This document shows positions 5,635 to 62,700 of a DNA stretch of 64,000 bases, piece by piece. The position numbers and the translations under genes are program-made. Where the stretch lies: positions 62,001-126,000 of IMG/VR virus record IMGVR_UViG_3300020477_001012, one strand, 5' to 3'. Position 1 is the stretch's first letter. Every line of letters starts with the position of its first letter. This DNA comes from a virus. Under the pieces are notes generated by a model. It made no database searches and was not told the origin of the DNA. It saw nothing but the letters and a program-made list of their open reading frames with translations.

Positions 5635-5795
5635 TGGGGATGTGGGCTTTAGTTTTAGCCTTTCTATTATATCTTGTTGTGTCTATAGACTTATTCTCTA
5701 AAAAGAACTATGCTTTATCACTCGTGTTTCTATGTTATGCAGTATCCAACCTTGCATACATCTGGGTCGGTGATTATTTAAGAGGGCCAAAATAG
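5634..5795 (+). CDS. small two-segment membrane protein (53 aa)
   Basis: The ATG at 5634 overlaps the last base of the ALDH stop (TAATG). The protein has two hydrophobic stretches, about residues 4-20 (WALVLAFLLYLVVSIDLF) and 27-45 (ALSLVFLCYAVSNLAYIW), and a short polar tail. Its TAG at 5793-5795 overlaps the GTG start of the next gene. This tight overlap on both sides, filling an otherwise empty 160-base gap, is the main support. The family and function are unknown. Confidence 0.6.
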   Translation: MGMWALVLAFLLYLVVSIDLFSKKNYALSLVFLCYAVSNLAYIWVGDYLRGPK

Positions 5796-6640
5796 TGGGC
5801 AATAATGGTCTGCGGAATATAGGTGTTGTGGGCAATGGCTTTGTCGGCTCAGCCGTAGCGTTTGGATTTTCGCATCTCACAGGGTGCGAGGCAAACGTCA
5901 GGGTGTACGACAAAGATAAATCAAGGTCGTCAGCCGAGCTATCAGATGTTGTTAACGAGTCTGACTTTATCTTCGTGTCGGTTCCAACCCCCGCCAACAG
6001 CGATGGCTCTGTCAATATAGATATAGTAGAAGATGTCTTTGCTGAAATGAATGAGCTTAACACAAGCAAGAACAACATATTCCTACTTCGGTCCACCGTG
6101 GTCCCGGGGACCACAAGAAAGATTCAAGAAGACTGCCCAAACTTGAATATAGTATTTAATCCCGAATTTCTCACCGAGAAGTCGGCCAAGTTTGACTTCA
6201 TAAACCCGTCTCGGTTTATACTAGGTGGCTTTCAGAAGGTGCTGGACTACCATACAATTAAAGCGGGAGACCTTTTAAAATGGAGATTCGGCCCCAGCGT
6301 TCCTATTATAAAGACTGATTACGAAACGGCAGAATTTATTAAGTATATGAATAATTGCTATTTTGCCACGAAAGTGTCTTTTCTAAACGAGATGAATCAG
6401 ATTGCTAGCGAATGTGGGGTCAATTGGGATGCGGCTATAGACGGCTTTTCAAGAGACGGCAGGGTTGGTCACTCACACCTGTCAGTTCCCGGTCCCGATG
6501 GTAAGTATGGTTTTGGAGGTAGCTGTTTCCCAAAGGACATACAGGCTATGATTAGCTTTGCTAAAACATTGGGAGTCGAACCCACCATGTTGGAGGGTGC
6601 GTGGAGCAAGAACTTAGAAGTTAGACCAAGCGATACATAA
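5795..6640 (+). CDS. UDP-glucose 6-dehydrogenase-like protein, short form
   Basis: A nucleotide-sugar dehydrogenase family protein with GNGFVG (13-18) for NAD binding, FNPEFLTE (121-128) and the catalytic GGSCFPKD with C244. The family oxidises a UDP- or GDP-sugar C6 alcohol to a uronic acid. It is only 281 residues, compared with about 390-450 for usual members. The NAD-binding and central dimer domains are present, but the C-terminal nucleotide-sugar-binding domain is absent. The next gene starts after 10 bases, so this is a genuine short form, not a window artefact. The start is GTG, overlapping the previous stop. It may supply a uronic acid to the glycan genes, or act on a smaller substrate. 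Confidence 0.8.
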   Translation: MGNNGLRNIGVVGNGFVGSAVAFGFSHLTGCEANVRVYDKDKSRSSAELSDVVNESDFIFVSVPTPANSDGSVNIDIVEDVFAEMNELNTSKNNIFLLRSTVVPGTTRKIQEDCPNLNIVFNPEFLTEKSAKFDFINPSRFILGGFQKVLDYHTIKAGDLLKWRFGPSVPIIKTDYETAEFIKYMNNCYFATKVSFLNEMNQIASECGVNWDAAIDGFSRDGRVGHSHLSVPGPDGKYGFGGSCFPKDIQAMISFAKTLGVEPTMLEGAWSKNLEVRPSDT

Positions 6641-6650
6641 GGATGATCAT

Positions 6651-7739
6651 ATGAGAGCAGCAGTAATTGGAACAGGTAGAATGGGTAGCGCCATAGCTTG
6701 GGCGATAGACAAATTATCAGATTTAGATGTGTTAACGCTGGTTGATTCCAACTCGGATAGTCTTAACCGGTGCGCAGATAACGTGGAACGTTCACCACTT
6801 AAAAGCTGTCTTCTATCTGAATGGACACCTGATTATTCACCGCTAAATAATAATGACATAGTGGTCTCTGCAATGCCCTACCATCAAAATTGGAAGGTTG
6901 CCAAATTTTGCATAGACCATAACGTGCCTTACTGCGATCTTGGTGGGCATGTAGAAACCAGCAAGAAGATTAACGAGTACGCTACATCTAATAACCAAGT
7001 AGTAGCAACAGATTTGGGTCTAGCCCCCGGGTGGGTAAACATCCTAGCGGAACGTGGATATCAATCGTATAATGCCAATAGCAAAGTCGCCCGGACCCCA
7101 ACATTAATAGAGATGATGGTTGGAGGACTTCCTATTCATCCTAGTAACTATTTAAAATATAGCTGTACGTGGTCATATGATGGGTTAGTCAATGAATATA
7201 AAGACCAATGTGAAGTTCTGGTTGATGGAGACATCAAGCTAGTTGACGGGATGTCTGGACTCACTCACATACAAACAGGCTTAGGTGACATGGAGGCATT
7301 TTATACAAGTGGAGGGGCTTCTCATACCATCAAGACTATGCTACAAAGAGGTGTTAAGAACTGCCACTACAAAACAATTCGGTATCAAGGACATTGCGAG
7401 GCCATAAAGTTTTTAATGAGCGAATGCGGACTAAGCGACGATGAGCTTGTCAAACTATTGCAAAATGCGTGCCCCCCAGCGGACGACTTAGTGATCATTA
7501 AAGCTAGAGTGGGAATTGGACACGCAAGTGATTGGAATACAGAAAAAGTTATATATCGGAACGATAAATTTTCAGCGATGCAGATGGCCACAGCGTTCCC
7601 GGTGGCTGTTGTAGCTACTATTATGGGAAACAAGGATCGAGATGAGCTAGGCACAGAACCATTGTCTTACAAAGACATTGCCTGCTCCTACGAAGAGTTT
7701 GAAAGTAGCCTAGAATATCTCTTTAGGGAAGTAAAATGA
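6651..7739 (+). CDS. lysine 6-dehydrogenase / saccharopine dehydrogenase family oxidoreductase
   Basis: The N-terminal Rossmann motif is IGTGRMGSAIAW. Several stretches follow the lysine 6-dehydrogenase pattern in order: DLGGHV, DLGLAPGWVNIL, a VGGLPIHP segment, EAFYTSGGAS and YKTIRYQGHCE. The length (362 aa) fits that family. Lysine 6-dehydrogenase oxidatively deaminates the lysine epsilon-amino group to alpha-aminoadipate semialdehyde, which cyclises to piperideine-6-carboxylate. Other saccharopine-dehydrogenase-like activities cannot be excluded. AAGGA precedes the ATG, and the gene overlaps nrdB by 4 bases. An aldehyde dehydrogenase two genes upstream could take the product onward; that link is inference. 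Confidence 0.8.
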   Translation: MRAAVIGTGRMGSAIAWAIDKLSDLDVLTLVDSNSDSLNRCADNVERSPLKSCLLSEWTPDYSPLNNNDIVVSAMPYHQNWKVAKFCIDHNVPYCDLGGHVETSKKINEYATSNNQVVATDLGLAPGWVNILAERGYQSYNANSKVARTPTLIEMMVGGLPIHPSNYLKYSCTWSYDGLVNEYKDQCEVLVDGDIKLVDGMSGLTHIQTGLGDMEAFYTSGGASHTIKTMLQRGVKNCHYKTIRYQGHCEAIKFLMSECGLSDDELVKLLQNACPPADDLVIIKARVGIGHASDWNTEKVIYRNDKFSAMQMATAFPVAVVATIMGNKDRDELGTEPLSYKDIACSYEEFESSLEYLFREVK

Positions 7740-11682: not shown

Positions 11683-12775
11683 AGTCACATTTGACGACGA
11701 CATTGTAAGCAATCAGATCAACAGTAAATATGGGGATATTATTGAGTCTGGCAGCAAAGTGCTGGCCAGCTTAGAAGAATTTGAGACTCTAGGCGTATCT
11801 CCAGCATTAGACATTGCTCTCGGTGGAGGATTGAGAGAGGGTAGCTGCGTGGTGATCACGGGCGACCCAAAGACTGGAAAAACGACTACCGCTCTCTATT
11901 TCGCAGCTAAAGCGCAAAGGGCCGGTAAAAAGGTGTACTACTTTAACACCGAGGGCCGCCTGACCAAGGAAAATTTCACAGGCATAAAAGACCTGAACAT
12001 AGAAGAAATTAAAATCGTACAGGCAACCGATAATCAGCCAGTTGTCTCTGCTGAGAAGTTTTTAAATACTCTGGAGGCACATGTCAAGGGTACTCCAGAT
12101 CTAGTGGCTATTATAGACTCTGCTTCCAACATGGTCCCGCAAGACGAACTAGATGGAGAAATTCGTACCGGTGTTCGTAATGCCCTACCCCGCTTACTGT
12201 CTATGTTCTTAAAAAGAATCAGCAATGATGTCGCAAGAACTAAGGCCATTCTCATTTTTATCACCCATAATATTGCTAATACTGGCGGTAGTAGATGGGC
12301 ACCCGCAAAGATGGCTGACTGCGGGAACATGTTACAGTTCCAAGCTGGAACCAACATGGTAATAACACACAGGGGCAAATGGGACGCCACCAATGATAGC
12401 GGCAGAGATGTAGGGCAAGTGGCCAACTGGGTGGTTAAAACTTCTGCTGCTGGAGGCATCCCCAACTCTACGGCAATGAGTTGGATTAGGTATGGTGTGG
12501 GTATTGATGAGGTACAAGAGATAGCTCAAATTGCAAATGAGTTTGCGCTGGTCAAACGTAGCGGAGCTTGGTACACGCTCAGCACAGCTATTGAAAACAA
12601 AGACGATCCCACGATTAGAAGTTGGTTGACAGAAATCGGCGTGAACCCAGACTCAGACGAAGAAGTAGAGAAGGCGTTTAAATTCCAAGGTATGGAAAAA
12701 TTAACTTCATTCTTAGAGAACAACGAGACGATAACTAGCTTTATATATGACCAGATCAAAGAGATCCTGCTGTGA
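11663..12775 (+). CDS. RecA/UvsX-like strand-exchange recombinase
   Basis: A 370-residue RecA-fold ATPase. Walker A is GDPKTGKTT (K73, T74), the catalytic glutamate is in YFNTEGRL, and Walker B is LVAIIDSAS. A conserved FITHNIANTGG segment in the sensor/L2 region follows. The family forms filaments on single-stranded DNA and drives strand exchange in recombination-dependent replication. No RecA-type C-terminal domain is obvious and the sequence is closer in style to phage UvsX. The gene overlaps a PD-(D/E)XK nuclease gene downstream, and a possible UvsY-like mediator follows that. Confidence 0.92.
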   Translation: MPKKKNKVTFDDDIVSNQINSKYGDIIESGSKVLASLEEFETLGVSPALDIALGGGLREGSCVVITGDPKTGKTTTALYFAAKAQRAGKKVYYFNTEGRLTKENFTGIKDLNIEEIKIVQATDNQPVVSAEKFLNTLEAHVKGTPDLVAIIDSASNMVPQDELDGEIRTGVRNALPRLLSMFLKRISNDVARTKAILIFITHNIANTGGSRWAPAKMADCGNMLQFQAGTNMVITHRGKWDATNDSGRDVGQVANWVVKTSAAGGIPNSTAMSWIRYGVGIDEVQEIAQIANEFALVKRSGAWYTLSTAIENKDDPTIRSWLTEIGVNPDSDEEVEKAFKFQGMEKLTSFLENNETITSFIYDQIKEILL

Positions 12776-13191
12776 AAGTCGTAGGACTGAACGGAAGGGA
12801 ATACAATCTTGACCTCAAAAAGTACATGAGCAATGACAGATTAAAGGTATCCAAGTATCACTCTAAAGCCCGAGACCTTATCCACCAAGTGTTTCATGGT
12901 TACAATATACTAGAAGAAGTAAAGCTACCGGGATCGGTAAATCCGGCAAGAAAATCTGTTTTATACCTTGACTTCCTAATTCCAAATGTTAAAATGGGGG
13001 TTGAAGTTCATGGCAGACAACACTATGAGTTTGTTCCATTTTTTCATAAAAGCAAAGCAGGGTTTGCAAAAGCAAAGAAACGCGACCTAGATAAAAAAGA
13101 ATGGTGTAGAATCAATGACATCACGTTGGTTGAACTAAAATGGAACGAAGACATAGATCATTGGAGGGAGAAAATTGAGCGTAGCAGATAG
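12772..13191 (+). CDS. PD-(D/E)XK (Vsr/DUF559-like) endonuclease
   Basis: A compact 139-residue nuclease with the Vsr/DUF559-type core: D67 in LYLDFLIP, E78 in VEVHGRQHYEF, with H80 and H84 nearby. An ARDLIHQVF helix precedes it, and a C-terminal RDLDKKEWCRIN-ITLVELKW block completes the fold. Possible roles are recombination-intermediate processing next to the recombinase, or a free-standing homing endonuclease of the EDxHD (I-Bth0305I-like) type. It overlaps the recombinase by 4 bases and the next gene by 17. Confidence 0.75.
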   Translation: MKVVGLNGREYNLDLKKYMSNDRLKVSKYHSKARDLIHQVFHGYNILEEVKLPGSVNPARKSVLYLDFLIPNVKMGVEVHGRQHYEFVPFFHKSKAGFAKAKKRDLDKKEWCRINDITLVELKWNEDIDHWREKIERSR

Positions 13192-26250: not shown

Positions 26251-27879
26251 ATGAACTGGTTTCCACTGTGTAATTATACCCACTATTCCCTGCTTAAGGG
26301 ATTCTCCAAGCCTGCACAGCTTGCAAAGAAATGTGCAGATAATGCATACAGAGCATGCGGCATCGCGGACTACAAGTCCCTGTCTGGAGCGGTGACATTC
26401 TATCAGGCATGCATAAAGAACGACGTGAAGCCTATCATTGGGTGCTCGTTCGATGGATTCTCCCTGTTTGCAAAAAATAAAGAAGGCTGGCTAGACCTTA
26501 TCCAGATAGTGTCATCTTTAGATGACTCTGGTGAGGTAAACAATGCTTTACTAACACATGTCTCTAGTAAGGGCAACTTGATTAGTATTGCTGGTAGCGA
26601 AGCCAACTCCCCCATCAGAGGCGAAGACTTTTATCGCAAGTCCGAGTCATTTATGGACATTTATTATACCGACAGGGAGGACGCACCGTTACATCGCATT
26701 TTACTATGCTCTAGTATGAAGACCACTTTACCCAAAGTAAGTAAACAGTTAACCGCTGGGGAAGAGGTTAAAAATCAAGTTTTCTTTGAATCAAACGACT
26801 TCTTTTTAAAGAACAAAACGGAGATCTCCGAGGTTATTGTGCTAGACCCGCAGATTGGAAAATTTGATGAGATCTACAACAAATGCGAGAACTACAACAT
26901 ACTCAACAAGCCAATGCTTCCAAAATTTTCTACACCAAGCGGGCTTGGGGAGAATGAATACCTAACGCAGCTTTGCAGGGATGGATGGAAAGAGAAAATG
27001 ATCCCAAGCGGAAAGGTAGACGACGAGGCGGAAAAAAATAGATATGCAAACAGGATCAAAGAGGAGCTGGATGTAATTTTTGAGGCCAACTTGTCTGGGT
27101 ATTTTTTAATTGTACAAGATATTGTAGATTATGTCAATCGGCAAGGATGGCTGTCGGGTCCGGGGCGAGGCTCTGCTGCTGGGTGTCTGGTTTCTTATAT
27201 GATCGGTATTACTAAAATTGACCCGATTGAGTTTGACTTATTGTTTGAAAGGTTCTATAATAGTGGGAGAAACACGGGGGGTCACATATCCCTACCAGAT
27301 ATTGATATGGATGTACCCGGGAACAAGCGCGATGAGATTATCTCCTACCTCAAAGATACCTATGGCCACGGCAACGTGAGCCAGATGCTTACATTCGGAA
27401 GACTCCAAGGAAGAAGTGCGATAAAAGAAGTGTTGCGTGTTAACAGTGCGTGTGGATTTAGTGAAATGAACGAAATCACAAAGGCCATCCCAAACGAGGC
27501 CGACATTTCTGATCAGTTGCAGGAGATGGACGAAGAGGACCGCTCGATCATCAGGTGGGCGTTAATCAACAATCCAGAAGACCTTAGAGATTACTGCTTT
27601 GTCAATGATAGAGGAGAGCTTGACGGAGACTACGCTGACTTCTTTGACCAAGCCATTAAAATAGAGGGCACATTCAAAACCCAAGGTAAACATGCGGCGG
27701 GTGTTGTGATTTCAGTTGATGAACTCAACACAGTTTGCCCCATGGTGAACCAAAGAAGCGGTGGAGAGAAAATTGCGGGACTGGAAATGGCCGACCTAGA
27801 AGCGCTGGGTCATGTTAAATTTGATGTCTTGGGGATCAACCTCCTAGACAAGATTATGAAAATAGAGGAACTAATATGA
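26251..27879 (+). CDS. dnaE: DNA polymerase III alpha subunit, N-terminal half (split DnaE)
   Basis: A 542-residue ORF covering the PHP region and the palm of a DnaE-type polymerase. The palm metal-binding aspartates are all here: D352 and D354 in LPDIDMD, and D525 in VKFDVLGIN. The SGPGRGSAAGCLVSY and KIEGTFKTQGKHAAGV blocks are also present. The PHP region is short (about 210 residues) and its first histidine motif is degraded (YTHYSLLKG), so PHP activity is doubtful. The protein ends right after the third aspartate, and the remaining finger, thumb and OB domains are in a separate ORF at 29022. AGAGGTTGAAAT precedes the ATG. Both halves are needed for one enzyme. Confidence 0.93.
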   Translation: MNWFPLCNYTHYSLLKGFSKPAQLAKKCADNAYRACGIADYKSLSGAVTFYQACIKNDVKPIIGCSFDGFSLFAKNKEGWLDLIQIVSSLDDSGEVNNALLTHVSSKGNLISIAGSEANSPIRGEDFYRKSESFMDIYYTDREDAPLHRILLCSSMKTTLPKVSKQLTAGEEVKNQVFFESNDFFLKNKTEISEVIVLDPQIGKFDEIYNKCENYNILNKPMLPKFSTPSGLGENEYLTQLCRDGWKEKMIPSGKVDDEAEKNRYANRIKEELDVIFEANLSGYFLIVQDIVDYVNRQGWLSGPGRGSAAGCLVSYMIGITKIDPIEFDLLFERFYNSGRNTGGHISLPDIDMDVPGNKRDEIISYLKDTYGHGNVSQMLTFGRLQGRSAIKEVLRVNSACGFSEMNEITKAIPNEADISDQLQEMDEEDRSIIRWALINNPEDLRDYCFVNDRGELDGDYADFFDQAIKIEGTFKTQGKHAAGVVISVDELNTVCPMVNQRSGGEKIAGLEMADLEALGHVKFDVLGINLLDKIMKIEELI

Positions 27880-28550
27880 ACAGGGATATTATTGTTTTTG
27901 ACTTTGAAACCGGTGGCCGAAACCCATTAAGGTGCCAGCCAACTCAGATTGCTGCCATCGCCTTGGATGGGAGAAACTTCAAACTGAAGGGCGAGTTCAA
28001 CAGTGAAATGAGACCGATCCTAGACGACAAGAAAGCTGCCGAAGCCGGAGTCGACCCAGTGGAAGACGAGGCGTTAAGGATCACAAACAAGACTAGGGCA
28101 GGCTTAGCCAAGGCCCCACTCCCGAAGGGTGTTTGGAAGAAGTTTGTTAACTTTGTTAATAAGTACAACTGGAAAGGAACACCCTATTTTGCTCCCATTC
28201 CTGCCGGATTTAACATTATTGGGTACGACATGAAGATCGTAGACAGATTGTGTAAAGCATATGGCCCTTGGGACGACAAGAGGAAATGTCAAAAGTTGTT
28301 TCACCAAATCTATAAGATTGATGTTATGGATGACGTGTGGTTGTGGACTGAAGGAGACCCAGACGTGAAGTCTATTAGTATGGATTCCTTGAGAGAGAGA
28401 ATGGGGCTGTCGTCAGAAAATGCCCACGACGCCCTTCAAGATGTCAAGGACACCGCCAATATATTTATCAAGCTGCAAAAGTCCCGCAGGGCGGTGTATC
28501 GCAACATGAAATTTGAAAAGGCTTTTGCAGATGGAAAGTTGTACGTATGA
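27876..28550 (+). CDS. DEDDh proofreading exonuclease
   Basis: A 224-residue 3'-5' exonuclease of the DnaQ type. Motif I is D9 and E11 in IVFDFETGG, motif II is D118 in FNIIGYDMK, and motif III is H184 with D189 in AHDALQDVKDTA. It lies between the two halves of the polymerase and overlaps both neighbours (ATGA with the N-half, 4 bases with the nuclease), so it is probably co-translated and acts as the proofreading subunit. The gene is complete, without beta-clamp or polymerase domains. Confidence 0.9.
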   Translation: MNRDIIVFDFETGGRNPLRCQPTQIAAIALDGRNFKLKGEFNSEMRPILDDKKAAEAGVDPVEDEALRITNKTRAGLAKAPLPKGVWKKFVNFVNKYNWKGTPYFAPIPAGFNIIGYDMKIVDRLCKAYGPWDDKRKCQKLFHQIYKIDVMDDVWLWTEGDPDVKSISMDSLRERMGLSSENAHDALQDVKDTANIFIKLQKSRRAVYRNMKFEKAFADGKLYV

Positions 28551-29029
28551 TTGAAGTAAAAATAACTAAAACCATGCTCACTAGGGCCAAGAAGAAGGCC
28601 AAGGAAATGGGTGTAATAAAGAATAGCATCCTTTCCGGCGAGGGAAATTTAGCTGGATTTCTCGGAGAAGAGGTTGCAAATCGCATTTTACGTGGTAAAA
28701 TAAACAACACATACGACTATGACATTGTGTGTGGAGACAAGAAATACGACGTGAAGACCAAGCGGTGTACTAGTCCCCCGAAGCCTTATTACGAGTGTAG
28801 CGTGGCAAAGTACAATACTAAGCAGGGATGTGATAGCTATTGCTTTGTGCGAATAGAGTACAAGAATGGGAAGTGGGGCCGAGCATGGTATCTTGGAGAA
28901 AAAGACAAAAAAGCGTTCTACAAAAAGGCGAAAGAACTAAAAAAGGGTCAGGTTGATCCAGACAACAACTTCGTTGTCAAGGCAGATTGTTTTAATTTAG
29001 CTATCAAAGATTTGAAAATAAATGATTGA
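28547..29029 (+). CDS. PD-(D/E)XK endonuclease-like protein
   Basis: A 160-residue restriction-endonuclease-fold protein. The probable active site is E41 (GFLGEEVA), D59 (YDYDIV) and the D-x-K of D68/K70 in KKYDVKTKR. The remainder is basic (KAFYKKAKELKKGQ). It lies between the exonuclease and the second polymerase half, overlapping both (4 and 8 bases). It could process replication intermediates or be a relic of a homing event that split the polymerase; the sequence does not decide. Confidence 0.75.
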   Translation: MIEVKITKTMLTRAKKKAKEMGVIKNSILSGEGNLAGFLGEEVANRILRGKINNTYDYDIVCGDKKYDVKTKRCTSPPKPYYECSVAKYNTKQGCDSYCFVRIEYKNGKWGRAWYLGEKDKKAFYKKAKELKKGQVDPDNNFVVKADCFNLAIKDLKIND

Positions 29030-30581
29030 CTACAAAGACGATAAGACTTGGGACTTGTTCAAAAATGGTCGAACCAAAGGGGTTTTCCAACTGGAGAGCA
29101 ACCTTGGTAAGTCGTGGTCCAAAAAGGTGTCACCGGACAACCTTGAGGAACTGGCAGCATTAATTGCCCTGATTAGGCCGGGATGTTTGAAGGCCATGTC
29201 TGAAGGCAAATCTATGACCCAGCACTACGTTGATCGTAAGAGCAAAAAAGACAAGGTGACCTATCTAGATGAGTCTCTTGAGGAAATTTTAAGCCCCACA
29301 TATGGGGTTCTGGTATACCAAGAGCAATCTATGCGTATCGCCCAAAAAATCGCTGGGTTTGATCTTCAAGAAGCTGATATACTTAGAAAGGCTATTGGAA
29401 AGAAGAAGGCTGGACTTATGGCCGAGGTTCGAGAGTCATTCTTAGAGGGCGCTCAGTTCGTAGGATTGGTTAGTAATGATGTTGCCGAAGAAATTTTTAG
29501 TTGGATTGAAAAATCTTCTAGATACTCTTTTAATAAGTCCCATGCCGTGGCTTATGCTATTAACTCCTATTGGTCAGCATGGTATAAGGCTAATCATACC
29601 AAGGAATTCTTCTTGTCGTATTTCTTCCACGCCGCCGACAAGCAAGATCCCCACCAAGAGGTATACGAACTATTGTCTGAAGCTAAGCTCTTCAACTTGG
29701 AAGTTAAGATACCTAATCTGTCTAGATTTAGTGAGAAATTCAAGCTGTACGGCAGAAGTATACAATTCGGTATCAAGGATATCAAGTCTTTAACAGGCGT
29801 GACCGGAGACAAGGTTATGCAAGCAATAGCAGACACAAAAAAAGAACTCGGAAAAAAGCCAGAAGAATTTAGCTGGCTGGACATAGTAATCTATCTGTCC
29901 CCTAGAATCAATGCAACCGCCTTCAAGGCCCTTTGCTCAATTGGGTTTTTCTCTACGAAGGAGGCTAATGTTTCTAGAAATAAGGCCCTGTACGAGTATC
30001 TTATTTTTAGAGAGTTGACTAAAGCAGAGGTTAACTGGGTCACAAAGAATTATCCAGATAAACAATGGTCTAGAATGTCTGATTGCTTCCGAGACCTTGC
30101 GCCCGTAAAGAAAATGGGTGGAGGAACCAGCAAGGTAGAACGAAGTCAAATTGTTTTAAATGAGGCAGAGATGTTAGACAATCCCCCGTATGATTTGAGT
30201 GACGATCCCGCATGGATCATTGAGCAGGAGGCCAAGTTTTTAGGGTGCCCGGTGTCACTTGCTCGTATTGAGTCATCTGACACGTCTACTGCCAATACGT
30301 CTTGTAAAGATATTACAAACGGCAAGACTGGCAAGGGGATTTGTGTGGCCGCCAACGTAAACAGGGTTGCTAACTACAAGGTAAAAAAGGGCAAGACAAA
30401 GGGAAAAACAATGGCCTTTCTGACAATAGAAGACGAAACATGCTCACTGGACAGTGTTGTTGTCTTCCCAGAAGCCCGAGAAAAACATCAATACATATTG
30501 TACGAGGGCAACAATTTACTCTTCTGCGGATCTGTAGAAAAAGACAGTTCCTTTATTATAGAAAAAATTCACGAAATATAA
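29022..30581 (+). CDS. dnaE: DNA polymerase III alpha subunit, C-terminal half (split DnaE)
   Basis: A 519-residue ORF continuing the polymerase from the point where the N-half stops. It starts IDYKDDKTWDLF, then GVFQLES, LIRPGCL, TYGVLVYQEQSMRIAQ and FNKSHAVAYA, as in the finger domain of DnaE. A helical region and a C-terminal OB-fold-like domain follow (NVNRVANYKVKKG to FLTIEDETC). No residues appear to be lost at the junction. The site where cyanobacterial DnaE carries a split intein corresponds to Y168-S169 here and is uninterrupted, so this is a different split with no intein. It starts with an 8-base overlap with the nuclease gene. Confidence 0.92.
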   Translation: MIDYKDDKTWDLFKNGRTKGVFQLESNLGKSWSKKVSPDNLEELAALIALIRPGCLKAMSEGKSMTQHYVDRKSKKDKVTYLDESLEEILSPTYGVLVYQEQSMRIAQKIAGFDLQEADILRKAIGKKKAGLMAEVRESFLEGAQFVGLVSNDVAEEIFSWIEKSSRYSFNKSHAVAYAINSYWSAWYKANHTKEFFLSYFFHAADKQDPHQEVYELLSEAKLFNLEVKIPNLSRFSEKFKLYGRSIQFGIKDIKSLTGVTGDKVMQAIADTKKELGKKPEEFSWLDIVIYLSPRINATAFKALCSIGFFSTKEANVSRNKALYEYLIFRELTKAEVNWVTKNYPDKQWSRMSDCFRDLAPVKKMGGGTSKVERSQIVLNEAEMLDNPPYDLSDDPAWIIEQEAKFLGCPVSLARIESSDTSTANTSCKDITNGKTGKGICVAANVNRVANYKVKKGKTKGKTMAFLTIEDETCSLDSVVVFPEAREKHQYILYEGNNLLFCGSVEKDSSFIIEKIHEI

Positions 30582-30637: not shown

Positions 30638-30955
30638 ATGAACATCTGTAATTTTACCGGCTTCTTGTTAGAAGACCCCGAGCTATCTATTAGTAGTAAT
30701 GTGAGCCATCTTGTTTTTAAGCTGGTCACCTATACATATAGAAGAAGCAAAAATACCGGAGAGAAGCAAAGAATGCCCACTGTCTTAACTTTTGAGGCGT
30801 GGCACACAGGGGCCGAAACTATTGCCAAGCTGGCTCAAAAGGGCACCAAAATGACCGTGTCTGCTTCTGCCAAGAATGGAAAAGGGGAAGCCGACATACT
30901 CTTCAGGGTGAATGAATTTGATTTTGGGTGCCTTAACCAAGAGCAGGAATTATGA
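30638..30955 (+). CDS. single-stranded DNA-binding protein
   Basis: A 105-residue OB-fold protein with the SSB pattern: an NFTGFLLEDPEL start, SHLVFKLVTYTYRR, FEAWHTGAETIAKLAQKGTKMTVSASAK. It lacks the acidic C-terminal tip of bacterial SSB, though it ends NQEQEL. It protects single-stranded DNA in replication and may be the partner displaced by the UvsY-like protein. AAGGAAATTA precedes the ATG; it overlaps the next gene by 4 bases. Confidence 0.8.
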   Translation: MNICNFTGFLLEDPELSISSNVSHLVFKLVTYTYRRSKNTGEKQRMPTVLTFEAWHTGAETIAKLAQKGTKMTVSASAKNGKGEADILFRVNEFDFGCLNQEQEL

Positions 30956-52665: not shown

Positions 52666-53426
52666 ATAAACTTGACATAAGCATTATCAAAATGTACAAT
52701 GAAGACAACAAGAGTACCTACGAAATAGCTGAGGCTCTCGGTACGTACCCAAACAAGATTAGGAGAACCCTAAAGAAGCATGGATACGAACTGAAAGATA
52801 AAAAAACAGCACAACAGAATGCCCTAAAGAGCGGTAGAAGTCCGCACCCCACAAAGGGGAAAACAAGATCACTAGAAGAGAAAATAAAAATTAGCGGAGG
52901 CTTGGTCAACTACTGGGAAGATATGAGCGATGAGGAAAAAGAAAGAAGGGCAGAACAAGCAAAGGCAAGGTGGGAGGAGATGCCACAAGAACAAAAAGAG
53001 AAAATGAGAACGAGGGGAATAGAGGCCATCCAGAGATCAGCCAAAGAGGGATCTAAATTAGAAAGATTTTTGCTAGACAGACTGGGCAAGCTTGGATACG
53101 AGGTGAAGTTTCACCAAATGCTCATTCCCGCCGAAAAATTAGAAATTGATTTGTATATTCCCACACTCAAGACTATAATAGAAGTAGATGGGCCTTCACA
53201 TTTCCTTCCCATATGGGGAGAGGAACGACTGCAAAAACAAACGAATGCCGATCTGAGAAAAAGTGGAACTCTGCTTAGTAAAGGATATGTAGTTATCAGG
53301 GTTAAGACAGTTGGTTTTGAATCTATTAAAAGAAAGGAAGATATAATAAATCAGATTGCGTCTCATTTGAACAAAATTGAAACCAAGTTTCCAAAAAGAT
53401 CGAAACGTTTTATTGAGGTTGAATAA
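52662..53426 (+). CDS. homing endonuclease-like protein (HTH, NUMOD-like and PD-(D/E)XK domains)
   Basis: A 254-residue mosaic. The first 45 residues are a helix-turn-helix (KSTYEIAEALGTYPNKIRRT). A NUMOD3-like stretch (SPHPTKGKTRSLEEKIKIS) follows, then a Glu/Lys/Arg-rich coiled-coil linker (about 85-120). A Vsr-like PD-(D/E)XK nuclease follows with E134, D163 (EIDLYIP) and E174 (TIIEVDGPSHF). This is the domain layout of EDxHD-type free-standing homing endonucleases, which cut and spread into related phage genomes. It overlaps the previous gene by 4 bases and abuts the next one. Confidence 0.75.
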   Translation: MNKLDISIIKMYNEDNKSTYEIAEALGTYPNKIRRTLKKHGYELKDKKTAQQNALKSGRSPHPTKGKTRSLEEKIKISGGLVNYWEDMSDEEKERRAEQAKARWEEMPQEQKEKMRTRGIEAIQRSAKEGSKLERFLLDRLGKLGYEVKFHQMLIPAEKLEIDLYIPTLKTIIEVDGPSHFLPIWGEERLQKQTNADLRKSGTLLSKGYVVIRVKTVGFESIKRKEDIINQIASHLNKIETKFPKRSKRFIEVE

Positions 53427-54206
53427 ATGATTGATAACAGATCGCGGGTCGACGAAGACCTGTTTAAAGATGTTGAGCTACAAACACCGGAGAATACAGA
53501 GGTTGGGACTACTGACGTTATGGATGATGGCAGACCCAACATTGTGTCCCCCGAGTGGAATGATTTTGTCATGTCTCAATTTGAGGACAATGAACTCATA
53601 GAGGGCAGGCCAGTTGCCGCTGGTCTCAGACGTGTTGCGGAGATGATGCTTGGGGAAATTATTTCTAGTGGACCCTCGCAAGTGTTTCCCCCAAGTGATG
53701 ATAAGAGCATTGGTAGAGCCACGGTTGTGTGGCGAGTAGAGTTTTCTAATGGGACATCTTTTTCTGATGTGGCAGACTGCTGGGAAGGCAACACAGACGA
53801 CACATTCTGCGTCTATGCGGTCGCAACAGCAGCTACTAGGGCAGAAGGCAGGGCGTTGAGAAAGGCTCTTAGACTGCGAACTGTGGCCGCTGAGGAGATT
53901 ACCAAAAAGAATACGGCTAGTATTGCTCGCAGTATTAGCCAAGCCTCCGGCATGGAAACAACACAGGGCGAATACGAAGATCAGGGAAGAATGACTGATG
54001 CACAAGGCAACTTTATTGATGTCAAGTGCAGACAACTCAATATTAATGGCTCTCTATTTTTCAAAGAGGCATTTGACATCTCATCAAAGCGTAAAATTAC
54101 AAAGCAGCAAGCTAGTAACGCAATAGAGAGACTAAATGACTTTCAGAGAAACGAGAGTGGCGTACCAAAATCTATTTTAGGCTATAAAGAAGACTGGAGA
54201 GACTAA
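53427..54206 (+). CDS. possible Rad52-like single-strand annealing protein
   Basis: A 259-residue protein. An alpha/beta core has WRVEFSNGTSFSDVADCWE followed by a helix with VATAATRAEGRALRKALRL and RTVAAEEI, which resembles the DNA-binding helix of Rad52-like annealing proteins. The first 60 residues are acidic and disordered, and the C-terminus is helical. The link is by eye and moderate; no family is certain. It is co-oriented with the zinc-ribbon gene and overlaps it by 1 base. Confidence 0.45.
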   Translation: MIDNRSRVDEDLFKDVELQTPENTEVGTTDVMDDGRPNIVSPEWNDFVMSQFEDNELIEGRPVAAGLRRVAEMMLGEIISSGPSQVFPPSDDKSIGRATVVWRVEFSNGTSFSDVADCWEGNTDDTFCVYAVATAATRAEGRALRKALRLRTVAAEEITKKNTASIARSISQASGMETTQGEYEDQGRMTDAQGNFIDVKCRQLNINGSLFFKEAFDISSKRKITKQQASNAIERLNDFQRNESGVPKSILGYKEDWRD

Positions 54207-55630: not shown

Positions 55631-58600
55631 TTAAACAGGGTCAATGGTAAGATCTATATATTGGTCACTATTGTTGGCGTAGCTACCCCAGTCGCCCCGA
55701 CTCCAAAAAGTGTGAGATATGTCGTTTTGGAAATGAAAAAATATGTCATATTTACCCTCATCAGAGGGGTTGTCTATCATGGCTTGAGTTACCTTATTTC
55801 CCTGTGTCAGCTCCTTGGGGTCTGAGTGTTCTTTTGGGTAATTAGGGGCTTGTATGGAAAGTTGGAAATTATCAATGGATGTTGCCATTTGGGGCTTAGC
55901 GTCCGTAGCGTCCATGGTTTTTACTCGCCCCTGAACCAGATATGCCTTAAACCCCTTACCGTGTACAGACACGGAGCTTACAGGCTCAATTTTGGCAGAT
56001 CCTTGGGTGAAGCTTTTGAGTTTATTCATATGAGCTTGGGTCATATTTCCCTGATTTGAGAGCTTAAAAAGTTTAGTATGATCAAAATACGTGCCTGAAC
56101 TTACAAGCTCAAATTGATTAATAAATCCTTTGTGATCACCCAAGTCTGTAACATAGCTCACCTTGAGTTCGCAATCGCTACCCGCAATTGTGAATCTGTC
56201 TCCCACCTTATAATTTTTACCCAAATCCTGAACCACCATGTTCACGACCCACGGAGTTTTCGTTTGCGCATCCGGCGTGCTTGGTTCATCAATGAACTTA
56301 TGGGTAGACAGGTGGGTCTGTGGCAAGCCTCCGCTGTGATAGACCCCGGCGCTTTGGGTCGCAAGAGATGCAACGTGATCAGTTAAGGTTATCTTGTCTC
56401 CTACATCCCAAGGAAATGCCACCCTCTTGTAAGCATATTTAAACGGAAGTAATTTCCCCCTTCTAATTTTGTTTATTTCCCACTTACCGGAAGGCAGGAG
56501 TGGATCATTAATGGCTGCGGCCGTGTCTTTGCACGCATCTCCGAATATCTGGTAGTCATTCAAAAGTTCAGTGGGAAGGTTAAGAACGGTAGTATCCTCT
56601 TGGTCTGCTTTTTTGACGCAGGTGGGGATTCTTATGTCCACCGTGCTATCTGCGATGGCAATGTTATGATCTGGTATACCGTCCCCATCTGTGTCTTGGC
56701 CCTCTCTCCTGACAGCCACATCAAAAATCGTCGCCCCATGATTGAAATGGTGGACCGCAAAGAATCTAGGATCATAAATTGTCTGCTCTCTGGGCCAAGC
56801 GTAATAAATTCTAGCGGACAAATTGGTGGTATGGAAGTCGTTATACGTTAATGAGGGACCACCCCAAGTAGATAACCACTTGGTCGTATCCCCAATCCTG
56901 TAGCCAAAGTCTGATTGCATTCCAAATATCTGATCAGTGGTGAAATTAATAAACTGAGAGGCCGAAACCGTGCAAATAGCGCCTATAACACCCACAGCGC
57001 CTGCTGGCTCTGAATCTGATGTGGTCGGCCCGAGCGGCCACTTGTTCTGGTGAGCTGACCAAGAATCGTGTGACGAGAAGTGCTCAGATGGATCATTTGA
57101 GGCAAATAAGGACTGTGGATAATCCACGTTAAAGCTAAGACCATAAGCTGGGCGATTATGAAAATCAGGAGCACCATTCATGTATAAATTGTTGAATCCT
57201 CCCGGGCCGAACTGCTTCTCTCTATCACGAGAAGTTTTGGAGACAAGAGTTCCTCCGGGTATGCTGAAAAGACCGTGTGAAGCTAGTTGCGACATTTTTC
57301 TTTCGCCATAATGATAAAAATCTCGACGCTCAAACTCTGCCAGAACGGCGGCTGTTTCCGACATAGGGGTAACACCAGCATATACTTCTGCCTTAAGGGG
57401 CCGGAACTGTATTTTATTGGCCGTTTTGGGCTGGAAATCATAAGCGCTGTCGTCCGCAGCTCCAACTCCAGTATAATCGCTGCCCAAAGTGGCGTCATGA
57501 CTAACTGTGTCTCCATCTGTATATTTCCGTTTATGTAACCAGTTATACGCACAATTTCCCAGAGGATCATCAGGGGAATAAAAGAAATGGTCCTTTAAGT
57601 GGGTTCTTAAAGCTGATCCGGTAAGTGTCGTATTATGTACCGCCTTGGTGATCTCATAAAGACTAGTTAATGGCCTACCGTAGCTGCCGCTGGGGGAAGC
57701 ATTCATAGCAATGTCGGCGGGCAGATGGGGGACATCATGGTTACCATTAAAAATATCCGCAAACATAGCTAGCCGTATGGTTTTGTCGGGATCATTGGGA
57801 TCTATTATTGACGGGCTTTCCGAATAAACATGCCTATCCGACTCCATACTAGTCCCGCCATCAAATGCTATTTCCGTAGAATCTATCCCTCCCGCGTTGA
57901 AATAAGCAGCATTCTGTCTTGGCGAAACCTCAAAAGATCGAGTGTCGGAATAATACTCTGCCCCATTTCTATCTACATCCTCATCCGCGCCCTTATAACC
58001 GTTCGGGAATACGCACCCAAAAAATGGCCCAGATGTTTCTGGTGGAGGATCACTAATCACAGTTCCAATGGGGTCTTGACCATACACGGTGGCCCCAAGA
58101 GACCTAGTCTCCCCTCTGGTTCCACCAACATATCTGTCCATAAAATCAAACGAGGTAAACTGATGATATCCATCCAGCTCAGTGTCAAAGGAACTGATAT
58201 TTCTAGTGTAGAGATGTGGGCTTTGGGCGGGATCGGCATTCCAATTGTCGGCATCACCATGGTAATACTGGACATGAAAGGATTTCTCGGCACGTTCAGG
58301 AGAAATCCTTGCGTTGTTCTTGTCTCGGAAAAAATACTGGAGACTTGTCGCAAAGTATGTAAAGTCCCATCGCCCCTCAAAAACCGAAACACCTACTGCA
58401 TCCTCTGTAACACCACTTCCAAACTCTAAGGGCATCCAAAGTCCGTTGATTTCATTAAGTATAACAGTTGTGTCTGTCTCCCAGATGCGCCCGGGATCAG
58501 GATTGTGTACAATAACCTTAAACTTTTCTTTGTTGTCCTTGCGGCAATCTTTAGGCAGAACGTAATTGGGCGTCCACTGCATGGGATTCCCATTCTGCAT

Positions 58601-59746
58601 GGTAATAGGTATTGCTGCCCCGCTCCCTAGAACCAAATGTTTTGGGTCTTCTGTGTCGTCTAAAACATCCTTGTTGTCTTGGTCCTCCATGTCTTTTGCT
58701 GTGGCGGCCCATGTCGCGGCGGGAATGGTCTGGGAAATTTTAGCTAACATCTGTTTACTTCCAGATTGCCATTTACCCGTCATGTGGTTCATGTGCATAT
58801 CCACATCTCCCACCACCTTGTTCTCGGGCTTATCTTCTACTTCCGAAATTTCTCCATCTTCCGAGTTTCCGTCCCGGCCAGCCACGTCTCTTGGCACCCC
58901 AGCGTGTTTCATGGCGCTCATAATGGCTGTTCTTCCGGTCTTTCTCTCCGACCTTTCATCGTAAAGGTACAATTGAATGTTAAAGGATTCCGTCTTGTGT
59001 GCCGGAACAAGGTTTCCAGCATCATCACTAAATAGTTGCCCCGGCGCTACATCAAAGGTTACTGCCACCGGGTATATTAAGCAACCAGATTTGCTGGTTT
59101 TAATATCTTCAATGAACCTATGCCGGGCTTGAGCTTCGTCATTCCACTTAGACACATCTGGCTCTTTCACTAAGTAGTCACGCACCCAGTCATTCATGGC
59201 AATAATATTAGTCACCTCGTATGTCCCACCGTCAGCGACTGGAAGTCCAAGAAGCCTTTTTGGTTCCAACAAATTAGAAAAAGTTCCATCGTTAATATCA
59301 TCACTTGCGGCTGGAATCCACTTAATGGCTTTGAAAAAATCTATGTCTAAGTCCGCGTAGTCGTAATTATTGCCATGCCACGGTTTATCTTCTGCCTCTG
59401 GTCTACCGTCAGCATAAGCCCAAGTTAGGTCAAATTTCTTTTCTTGATACTTACCCTTGTTGTTTCCCTCAAACCTCCACACTTCAGATGTCCCCTGTGA
59501 GGGCGGGTGTGGACCTGCGGCCCCCGCTATTGTCGGAGTCATGTTAAAAAACACACTGGGCGTTATGTGCGATTGGTCCTGTAAGACTAGAGACCTATTT
59601 ATAAACTTACCCCCTGCACCCCTATGGTACCACCAGTCGTACAGTGTTCCTGTTGTAAATGTAGAAAGACCTAGCTCTTTCATCCACTCACTGTCGGTCA
59701 CAAAGACGTGAAAATCCTCGGCCTCATTATTCTTAAATAAATCCAT
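55631..59746 (-). CDS. large virion structural protein (1371 aa)
   Basis: Reading leftwards from 59746 with AAAGGAATAAG as ribosome-binding site. The 1371 residues are rich in D, N, G and aromatic residues and have no signal peptide, transmembrane segment or enzyme motif. Many short beta-like repeats, such as FHVFVTDSEWMKEL at the start and DQYIDLTIDPV at the end, fit a large baseplate or tail-fibre-like protein. It is 12 bases after the gene at 59759 (in transcription order). I cannot assign it to a known family; the size and strand place it with the structural genes. Confidence 0.75.
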   Translation of the reverse strand: MDLFKNNEAEDFHVFVTDSEWMKELGLSTFTTGTLYDWWYHRGAGGKFINRSLVLQDQSHITPSVFFNMTPTIAGAAGPHPPSQGTSEVWRFEGNNKGKYQEKKFDLTWAYADGRPEAEDKPWHGNNYDYADLDIDFFKAIKWIPAASDDINDGTFSNLLEPKRLLGLPVADGGTYEVTNIIAMNDWVRDYLVKEPDVSKWNDEAQARHRFIEDIKTSKSGCLIYPVAVTFDVAPGQLFSDDAGNLVPAHKTESFNIQLYLYDERSERKTGRTAIMSAMKHAGVPRDVAGRDGNSEDGEISEVEDKPENKVVGDVDMHMNHMTGKWQSGSKQMLAKISQTIPAATWAATAKDMEDQDNKDVLDDTEDPKHLVLGSGAAIPITMQNGNPMQWTPNYVLPKDCRKDNKEKFKVIVHNPDPGRIWETDTTVILNEINGLWMPLEFGSGVTEDAVGVSVFEGRWDFTYFATSLQYFFRDKNNARISPERAEKSFHVQYYHGDADNWNADPAQSPHLYTRNISSFDTELDGYHQFTSFDFMDRYVGGTRGETRSLGATVYGQDPIGTVISDPPPETSGPFFGCVFPNGYKGADEDVDRNGAEYYSDTRSFEVSPRQNAAYFNAGGIDSTEIAFDGGTSMESDRHVYSESPSIIDPNDPDKTIRLAMFADIFNGNHDVPHLPADIAMNASPSGSYGRPLTSLYEITKAVHNTTLTGSALRTHLKDHFFYSPDDPLGNCAYNWLHKRKYTDGDTVSHDATLGSDYTGVGAADDSAYDFQPKTANKIQFRPLKAEVYAGVTPMSETAAVLAEFERRDFYHYGERKMSQLASHGLFSIPGGTLVSKTSRDREKQFGPGGFNNLYMNGAPDFHNRPAYGLSFNVDYPQSLFASNDPSEHFSSHDSWSAHQNKWPLGPTTSDSEPAGAVGVIGAICTVSASQFINFTTDQIFGMQSDFGYRIGDTTKWLSTWGGPSLTYNDFHTTNLSARIYYAWPREQTIYDPRFFAVHHFNHGATIFDVAVRREGQDTDGDGIPDHNIAIADSTVDIRIPTCVKKADQEDTTVLNLPTELLNDYQIFGDACKDTAAAINDPLLPSGKWEINKIRRGKLLPFKYAYKRVAFPWDVGDKITLTDHVASLATQSAGVYHSGGLPQTHLSTHKFIDEPSTPDAQTKTPWVVNMVVQDLGKNYKVGDRFTIAGSDCELKVSYVTDLGDHKGFINQFELVSSGTYFDHTKLFKLSNQGNMTQAHMNKLKSFTQGSAKIEPVSSVSVHGKGFKAYLVQGRVKTMDATDAKPQMATSIDNFQLSIQAPNYPKEHSDPKELTQGNKVTQAMIDNPSDEGKYDIFFHFQNDISHTFWSRGDWGSYANNSDQYIDLTIDPV

Positions 59747-59758
59747 CTTATTCCTTTC

Positions 59759-62700
59759 TTATTCCGGTCTTGGCTTTGGTGGTTTCGGGGCGGGCATATC
59801 AGGTTCATTGGGGTCATTAGAAACCCATTGAGCTAAAGAGTCATGGGCATCATTTAAGTTACCAATAATGTTAATAGCCATCTTACCACCATTTATAATC
59901 GCATCAAGCATTCCTGCGTCTGCCTCTGTGGAGGTGGCTTCCGTTTGATCCGGCCCCGATGTAGCTCCCCCTTGAATAGCTGTACTTACCACATCTTTGG
60001 TTCCATCAACAGGAACTCCATGGTTATATCTTTCTTTATATCCAACCAAATAATCCATACGAGCTGCCTCGCCCTTTTCTAAAGTGGTAAAATGCTCCTC
60101 TGTTGATTTTGTTCTCGCCACTAGTTCCGCTCCCCCCGCAGATAGAACACTACCAAACAAATTGACGTTGCTCGAAGATTTGCCCAACCCTCTTCTAATT
60201 GCAGAATTGTTTTGATCTATAATTTTTTGTCTTTCTCTGGATATTGTTGCTATGTTGCCCTCTTTTTGTTTTTGCAGCTTACCAAAGCTGGAAGTATATA
60301 GATCCATTTTTACGGCAGTGCTGATCTTATCAGTCCCAATGTCAACGCTAATCGAAGTGACCAGTGGGCCGCCCTTCTTTAATGCTTTTGCCAGACTTAT
60401 ACCTGTGGGAGCTTGAGGAAATGTAAAACCTCCACGCTCACTAAACAGAAGCAAGCTGTTAGAAAATTGGGCCTGCAATGATCCTGCCGCATTCATGAGC
60501 TGATACCCAGCAAAATTCCAAGGGGCAAGGTTTTCATCCTTAACAAATTCTATTTTGCCCCCAATATTCATCACCCCCGGAGATCCAGTGTTAGGATCTA
60601 ATGATGTTGCGGACAGCCAAGGTCCATAACATCTCTCCATTGACATTAATGGCATAGCCACCATGCTAGGGTATACCGGAGAAGGCGATATGAAAGATAG
60701 CTTACTAGCATCAAGGCTGGCCCCCTGCATCGCCTGCTTCTGCAATCTTCTTGCTGTTCCCAGATCCTCGAAATCAAACTTGACCACTTTATCCACATGT
60801 ATAGGTTTATCGCTATTTACAATCGGGGCCGGTTTGTCAAAGCCCGGGACACCCCTAACTACATCTCGCGTCATAAGGTTATACATACCAACCGCATTAA
60901 AAGAAGCTAATGGGCCATCTAGGTACCTCATGTCTACACCGGGTTTAATACGTCCCGGCAGTGTAATTAAGGCATACACATTGCTGGCGTCCAAATTATC
61001 CGTCCTTGAATTAACAATTTCGCCTTTCAGATTGTCATCATAGAATCTTACAAAGTCTTCATTTTGAACAGTTTTTTTCTTCCCCTCTGCTGGGGAAAAG
61101 CTAGGTTGTAATTTTTCAGTAACCTTTTTAGCCACCTTGCACCCATCCGAATCTTTGGTGAATTCTACTCTAACCTTGGGTTTTGATATTTTTACCTTAA
61201 AATCCCTTGCCCACACTTTTGTGGGAACCTCTGCTGTGCGAGGGGGCATATATAATTCTTCACTGACATCACATTTGACATAAGCAACAGACGGTCCCTG
61301 ACGTTTCAAAAGCTTATCATCTGCAATTTTGGCCTGCACCTGCTGCATGCTCATTTTCCTATCTGGATGAAGATTGTCTAACTCCTCCATCACATCAGGA
61401 ATAAAACCTTTCGCTGTAATACTTTGCTGAGCAATAGACTTAGAATCAACAGTGCTAAAATCGAGGTGTTCACTGTGGTCATACCTAGCATAGCAAGACA
61501 CCCTACCCCCATCGCCCAGCAGATTAGTTAAATCCATAGGGGCTAATGATTGCTGTGAGGCTGGAGGGAGGTTAGCAAACGGAACATTGCTTGCTTCTGC
61601 AAGCGACAAGTTTCTGTTATAGAGAGCAAAATTAAAGAACCCTCCTTGTGGCTCAGGCTTGTAATTAAATTCCCACTTTTCAGAGATAGGATTGAAGCTG
61701 CCCTTTAAAGCACCGTAGGTATACTTAGCCACATGAGTGTTGTCTAAATAATGCTCATATGTATCTTTAAACAGCACATTGCTTTGTAATATCGACATTT
61801 CTGTTGTAAATGAAAAGCTACTCGCAAAGTTCAGGGTGTTGTTCACTGGCTGGGGTCTAAAGCCAAACGGACCATTCTCTATGCTCCCAACCTCCTCTGG
61901 GCTGTACAGAGTTATATCAGAGGAATAATTTACATTGCAAGAGTTGGGAATCTTCACCAAGAATTTTTTGCCCAAATTCTCCTCAGCAACCTTCTTTACA
62001 AAGTTGTAAACTTTTTTTGCGTTTTTCAGGTGCTCTTTGGCCATACGGGACATATTTTTCACTAGACCCATGTTGGCATTAAGGGTGCTTTTTATTTCTT
62101 GTAGTTCAACCTTATCACTGGCCTGAATTGATGCCAACATCTGATCAAGTGTCTCTGAATATTTCTTGGCTTCCGCTATAGCGGTTGCGACTTCGGCTAA
62201 CTGGGCTGCAAGCTTGATTCGATCTGGCCAACCCATATCACCAAGAAGCAACCGATGCGTTCTCGCAAACGCTTTCTCCAATCTTGTTATTTCCTCCATC
62301 GCGTCGTCTTTTAAAATTTTGAACTCAGGAGCGTTGTTGTCTAGTTTCTTTTTAAGTCGCTCAACATTACTCATGCATGACGTGACTGCGCTTTGAATAG
62401 ACGCGATGCCGCCCTCGGGAATACCTATTTTCTCAGCGCGCTTGTAGTATAATGGATAACCATAAGGAGGCGCACACGGGCTGGCAGGAAGGCCATCTGG
62501 CCCCATGTAATTTTTATCAGAATTAAATAAACATCTTGGTACAGACACGCCGAAATCTCTACCCGTGAACATGGATTTTAGGGCATCTTTTGCGTCTGCG
62601 TCACCAGATAGTGCATCAATCTTGTTCTCTGCATCCGCCGTGAGTCCACCGCCCGCAGCGATCAATGTGGTCTCCCAAGTCTGGTTCTCTGACAATTCCT

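Follow-up and report, generated by a model that had tools for sequence, protein, structure and literature searches.

The viral DNA analyzed here, a window of 64,000 nucleotides (nt) corresponding to positions 62001 to 126000 of the 173,842-base IMG/VR record IMGVR_UViG_3300020477_001012, encodes a DnaE-type DNA polymerase as two separate halves with the gene of an exonuclease between them. We propose that the two halves probably make up a two-chain replicase of the C family, assembled non-covalently and served by the linked exonuclease as its proofreader; we infer the assembly, the polymerase activity, and the proofreading partnership from the sequence of this locus and of its relatives. The original prediction, made from the window's letters alone, had likewise read here a real two-chain DnaE, inteinless at the split and with a proofreader gene lodged between the halves, and the comparative evidence supports this core reading well.

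Results

Anatomy of the split locus

Four open reading frames (ORFs) follow one another on one strand of the window, with successive overlaps of 4, 4, and 8 bases, in line with the range of 4 to 8 first read, the overlap of 8 being that between the nuclease gene and the C-half gene:

26251..27879, + strand, DnaE N-half, 542 amino acids (aa): PHP domain (metal site degraded), palm, thumb, catalytic D350/D352/D525 (PF07733, PF02811)
27876..28550, + strand, DEDDh (DnaQ/epsilon-like) 3'-5' exonuclease, probable proofreader, 224 aa (PF00929, phrog_192)
28547..29029, + strand, PD-(D/E)xK-like nuclease, inconstant passenger, 160 aa (motif by eye, no family match)
29022..30581, + strand, DnaE C-half with its own start codon, 519 aa: fingers, beta-binding-type region, OB fold (PF17657)

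The ORFs and their family matches agree with the predicted arrangement of a DnaE in two halves with exonuclease and nuclease genes between them. PF07733 (DNA_pol3_alpha) matches the N-half with an E value of 9.4e-70, along with PF02811 for the PHP domain, PF17657 (DNA_pol3_finger) matches the C-half (E = 5.9e-48), and PF00929 (RNase_T) matches the exonuclease (E = 2.9e-9), whose PHROG family, phrog_192, is that of the "DNA polymerase exonuclease subunit." Both halves alike match phrog_405, a DNA polymerase family. The finger and OB domains had been assigned to the C-half, where the finger match is indeed strong and the OB match weak.

All three active-site aspartates reside in the N-half, as predicted, and D350, D352, and D525 are invariant in an alignment of 50 family members. 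The AlphaFold2 model of the N-half reached a pLDDT of 92 and a pTM of 0.88, and its best matches in the Protein Data Bank (PDB) are all Pol III alpha (TMq ~0.76). The C-half aligns to residues 587-854 and 900-1058 of E. coli alpha, its finger residues are highly conserved in the family alignment, and its AlphaFold2 model (pLDDT 92, pTM 0.83) has Pol III alpha as the top Foldseek matches in the PDB. Hidden Markov model and fold matches thus place the three catalytic aspartates, thumb, fingers, and OB fold expected of a DnaE-type polymerase across both halves, spread over two ORFs in all sampled members of the family rather than joined in the single polypeptide of a usual DnaE. Since the N-half profile ends at residue 637 of the Taq enzyme and 597 of the Mtb enzyme, and the C-half profile begins at Taq 648, Mtb 615, and E. 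coli 587, the cut lies in the variable palm-finger linker. The view that nothing is missing at the split, therefore, has to be amended, as ~10 to 17 residues of this inter-domain linker are absent compared to solved Pol III alpha.

The split is shared by a large group of uncultured viruses

Scans of IMG/VR yielded 80 loci when seeded with the C-half (the best 80 of 253 stretches), 58 with the N-half, and 61 with a divergent C-half. Every one of 159 public loci with full-length N-half, exonuclease, and C-half genes is split at the palm-finger linker and keeps the order N-half, exonuclease, C-half; these loci reduce to 108 (<99% identity), 88 (<95%), 76 (<90%), and 34 (<70%). The original prediction had asked how widespread the split is, and, being shared by all of these loci, it results neither from chance nor from error. 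The N- and C-half genes stand in all three relative frames (39, 37, and 12 of 88 loci), and those of the window lie >1 kb apart in differing frames, which, together with the agreement of independent contigs, bears out the earlier judgment that this is not a frameshift.

All scanned loci holding both halves are split except L208 (L numbers designate individual loci), which was considered as a fused relative and set aside as a remote fused DnaE of 22 to 39% identity that is not beside an exonuclease. Two contigs seemingly devoid of an N-half carry it well upstream of the exonuclease and C-half genes. In L232, the N-half precedes the exonuclease and C-half by ~6 kb (L232:2511-8412), the interval being occupied by six metabolic ORFs whose sequences are glyoxalase-like, aldehyde dehydrogenase, amidinotransferase-like, aminotransferase, UDP-glucose dehydrogenase-like, and saccharopine dehydrogenase-like. 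Genes of the UDP-glucose dehydrogenase and saccharopine dehydrogenase types are present in the window too, at 5795-7739. Each of 16 contigs of 90 to 238 kb has one PF07733 and one PF17657 match. Pairwise omega, taken over 16 close pairs where computable, was ~0.04 to 0.11 for the N-half, 0.01 to 0.04 for the exonuclease, and 0.03 to 0.10 for the C-half; all three are under strong purifying selection.

A tblastn search of INPHARED, from which records very near that of the window may be excluded, gave no close isolate, with best-covering matches at ~30% for the N-half and 29% for the C-half. The top-listed N-half match, "Staphylococcus phage SA 1306 Kay," has an ordinary fused DnaE with bacterial-looking neighbor genes and was judged to be host DNA. 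The closest isolate terminases (Microcystis phage MaeS, Bacillus phages) are ~25% identical, and the virus family was therefore left unassigned. Family members also occur in contigs L145, L146, and L147, binned as SAR202, Flavobacteriales, and Lokiarchaeota metagenome-assembled genomes, respectively; this disagreement suggests mis-binned viral contigs rather than hosts, and hence no host was assigned.

Ancestry of the split and decay of the PHP metal site

We placed 40 split members in a tree together with 16 other DnaEs of phage and bacterial origin; this tree comes from a quick search without bootstrap and contains several long outgroup branches. The split family forms one side of a branch with an SH-aLRT support of 100 and a stem of 1.27 changes/site, separate from every fused DnaE sampled. 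On this tree, the split is read as dating from a single event in the ancestor of a large lineage of uncultured viruses, every sampled descendant having kept it. Rossellomorea phage phiT1 (PV767480, gp20/gp19/gp18; L215:2989-6271), an isolate that also has a two-chain DnaE, is placed among fused DnaEs, which means that this palm-finger joint has been cut at least twice. As mobile nucleases often occupy the gap between the half-genes, a homing-endonuclease origin of the founding cut is plausible. Interruptions at conserved motifs are found in the isolates Thomasclavelia TR-TP1 (an HNH gene just after the third aspartate), Alicyclobacillus MMB025, and Bacillus Jayan, and these look intron- or endonuclease-driven.

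An intact PHP metal site is a feature of many DnaEs, though not of all. Of 50 N-halves of the split family, 18 have the full ligand set HHDDHEHHDH and 32 an incomplete one, that of the window retaining 2 of the 10 positions. Because the degraded forms do not make up one clade on the tree, L152 and the L051-L060-L075-L196 group standing apart from the window clade, the tree suggests that the PHP metal site was lost repeatedly within the family. One N-half is disrupted at residues ~342 to 355, beside the PDIxD active-site motif, by an insert of ~275 nt with stop codons (L132:5350-5626); it has no Rfam match and is perhaps an intron or a mini-element.

The exonuclease and other genes of the gap

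In every locus with the three core genes, the exonuclease gene lies between the half-genes, and its DEDDh residues D9, E11, D118, H184, and D189 are invariant in 38 homologues. Its distance to the C-half gene is ≤60 nt in 64 of 88 loci, with overlap in 53, while that to the N-half gene is ≤60 nt in 30, with overlap in 29; in 20 of the 88, the exonuclease is the sole gene between the halves, tightly packed. Since the DEDDh set is intact throughout while the PHP ligands are so often incomplete, the exonuclease would be the epsilon-like proofreader of the polymerase core and, the PHP metal site having decayed in the window clade, the only recognizable proofreading activity in the locus.

The third gene of the window's locus has no match above the cutoff in Pfam, PHROG, or PADLOC, and its assignment as a nuclease comes from visual inspection of the alignment, which shows a conserved E...D...DxK-type motif. 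It stands upstream of the N-half, between the N-half and the exonuclease, or between the exonuclease and the C-half, and is sometimes absent; as a constant subunit, it was, therefore, rejected. A PD-(D/E)xK-like gene lies within the gap in 9 loci and otherwise upstream of the N-half. Other occupants of the gap are EndoVII-like HNH genes (11 loci), uracil-DNA-glycosylase-like and methyltransferase-like genes, the six-ORF metabolic cassette, and, between the N-half and the exonuclease in 35 loci, a conserved ORF of ~70 to 90 aa (e.g., L045:6756-7031) whose product is possibly an extra core subunit. As these passengers vary in place and presence, only the N-half, exonuclease, and C-half genes form the constant unit. 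The organized operon of the original prediction is therefore to be amended: the four-gene set is not fixed, the nuclease varying in position and presence.

Inteins are found elsewhere in the C-half

By inspection of 97 loci, neither the ends of the N-halves nor the starts of the C-halves bear intein fragments, and no Rfam intron family is present in the window. The site of the cyanobacterial split intein, Y168-S169 of the C-half, was said to be intact and free of an intein, and it is uninterrupted in the window, as are the sites matching those of the inteins of relatives. In one relative, a contiguous in-frame intein with an HNH endonuclease motif sits at RPG|C of the C-half (L092:10331-12676). 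In another (L062:6200-9047), and also in L103, the C-half is broken at FNK|S, a few residues from the cyanobacterial site, by a split intein (intein-N of ~95 aa, intein-C of ~38 aa) with a separate 297-aa endonuclease ORF between its parts. Because the split intein also divides the C-half, three coding segments make up the polymerase of these relatives, and trans-splicing presumably rejoins two of them.

Replication genes and other features of the record

The record has one PF07733 match over its 173,842 bp. Neither PolA, PolB (PF00136), nor a second PF07733 was found in this record, which is not known to be complete, the same searches having given matches in control genomes; a second intact polymerase, which the original prediction held to be fatal to it, is thus not found in the record as available. 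Genes for UvsX-like, DnaB-like helicase, primase, exonuclease, ribonucleotide reductase (RNR), and PhoH proteins are carried by the record, as well as a single-strand DNA-binding (SSB)-like protein. One replication gene is adjacent to the split locus:

30638..30955, + strand, single-strand DNA-binding protein (PF00436 just above the cutoff, E = 5.8e-6)

An HNH/homing-endonuclease-like gene lies at 12772-13191 of the window, between the UvsX-like and DnaB-like helicase genes. Very large ORFs are found on the - strand at 55631-59746 (1371 aa) and 59759-63904 (1381 aa) of the window and at L142:5023-17469 (4148 aa). A permuted two-piece tmRNA gene is located at L140:14193-14622 (record 53193-53622; RF04321, 91 bits) with the predicted tag AKPSFALAA, and L139/L140 hold four tRNAs.

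Discussion

According to the two-chain model that we favor, the N-half would provide the PHP, palm, and thumb domains and all the catalytic metal ligands, while the C-half would provide the fingers, the beta-binding-type region, and the OB fold. Expressed from overlapping genes, the halves would stay permanently separate polypeptides and could associate non-covalently across the palm-finger boundary, which is only a variable linker in ordinary DnaE. The DEDDh exonuclease would join this core as an epsilon-like proofreader, and the gap between the half-genes would gather mobile nucleases and other genes. Several points weigh against this model: (i) the C-half stretch aligned to the internal clamp-binding motif QLDLF of E. 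coli (5fku) does not match it, although no motif-specific search was made, (ii) no DnaN-type clamp was found in the record, and (iii) the exonuclease could act in recombination instead of proofreading. A more demanding arrangement, which we regard as rather doubtful, would be an obligate three-chain enzyme in which the exonuclease bridges the palm-finger joint or acts as its chaperone, making polymerase activity dependent on the bound proofreader; the exonuclease gene is most often coupled to the C-half gene. If such an enzyme exists, fidelity and synthesis would be coupled by assembly and not by tethering.

Altogether, the other explanations fare less well. It is improbable that the halves form no polymerase and act separately, e.g., by diverting or blocking host replication through binding to the host DnaE or to proteins that work with it. 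The replisome does look host-dependent, as no clamp was found and no clamp loader was recognized in the record, where the single phrog_5846 match covers no more than 25 residues within the UvsX-like gene. Nevertheless, the catalytic aspartates and finger motifs are conserved under strong purifying selection beyond the needs of mere binding, and helicase, primase, UvsX-like, SSB-like, and RNR genes are encoded by the phage itself, with no other polymerase found in the record. Highly improbable, too, is a covalent rejoining of the halves in the manner of cyanobacterial DnaE, through an unrecognized split intein or RNA trans-splicing: the inteins in the C-halves of relatives indicate that DnaE trans-splicing appears to operate in some members, but at another site, whereas no intein blocks were seen on either side of the split in 97 loci, the N-half tails vary and extend ≤ ~25 residues beyond the conserved LDKxM, the C-half heads are short, and the half-genes, always flanking the exonuclease gene, stand in any relative frame and can be separated by up to ~6 kb.

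It is scarcely credible that an ordinary dnaE gene was recently invaded by an intron or a homing endonuclease, the insertion now decaying or being spliced out. The sporadic interruptions in TR-TP1, MMB025, and Jayan and the EndoVII/HNH genes in the gap of some members would fit such an event; however, the half-genes have clean ends, their own stops and starts, and variable tails, and the cut falls in a non-conserved linker and not inside a motif. Moreover, the split is old, as judged from its stem, and present in every member, the exonuclease stands alone in the gap in 20 of 88 loci, and no uninterrupted close relative was found among the loci scanned. The chance of a sequencing or assembly artifact is practically negligible, the agreement of many independent contigs refuting it.

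C-family replicative polymerases are otherwise large single chains or chains rejoined by inteins. Palm and finger parts that are separate by nature could help to dissect the closure of the fingers on the palm, the role of the exonuclease in holding the core, and the modularity of the replisome. Split polymerases in viral metagenomes can escape a search for full-length DnaE, and the split DnaE provides a marker for a large group of uncultured phages.

Several known systems invite comparison. Cyanobacterial DnaE (Ssp/Npu type) is encoded by two genes, split in the fingers before CFNKSH, and rejoined by a split intein; in contrast, the DnaE described here is cut at the palm-finger linker, without an intein there and with the cyanobacterial site intact. 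In PolC, a DEDDh exonuclease domain is inserted in the PHP domain. Polymerase and DEDDh exonuclease sequences are thus adjacent in both systems, but the exonuclease here forms a chain of its own, encoded between palm and fingers, and the polymerase sequence is of the DnaE rather than the PolC type. Phage and metagenome replication genes fractured by split inteins, with an endonuclease gene between the parts, were reportedly described by Dassa et al. in 2009. The C-half of L062 and L103, broken at FNK|S, resembles these fractured genes, whereas the palm-finger split is without intein halves and has a DEDDh exonuclease, not a homing endonuclease, as its constant occupant.

In group 2.2 jumbo phages, the Pol III alpha catalytic module occurs as two stand-alone proteins predicted to reconstitute an enzyme (Iyer et al. 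2021, PMC7824862). That split polymerase is a minimal form without the remaining Pol III alpha domains, is encoded by distantly located genes, and accompanies a family B polymerase (PMC7824862), while in the family described here the PHP and OB domains are present, the genes are linked with the exonuclease between them, and no PolB was found. Our literature search, which left most subscription papers out of its reach, found no account of a full-domain, linked, and exonuclease-containing split DnaE. Another likeness comes from phage phiT1, whose two-chain DnaE is likewise inteinless and divided at the same palm-finger linker, with only a 49-aa ORF and no exonuclease between the halves. As this isolate has acquired its split independently, the two-chain architecture is compatible with a viable phage.

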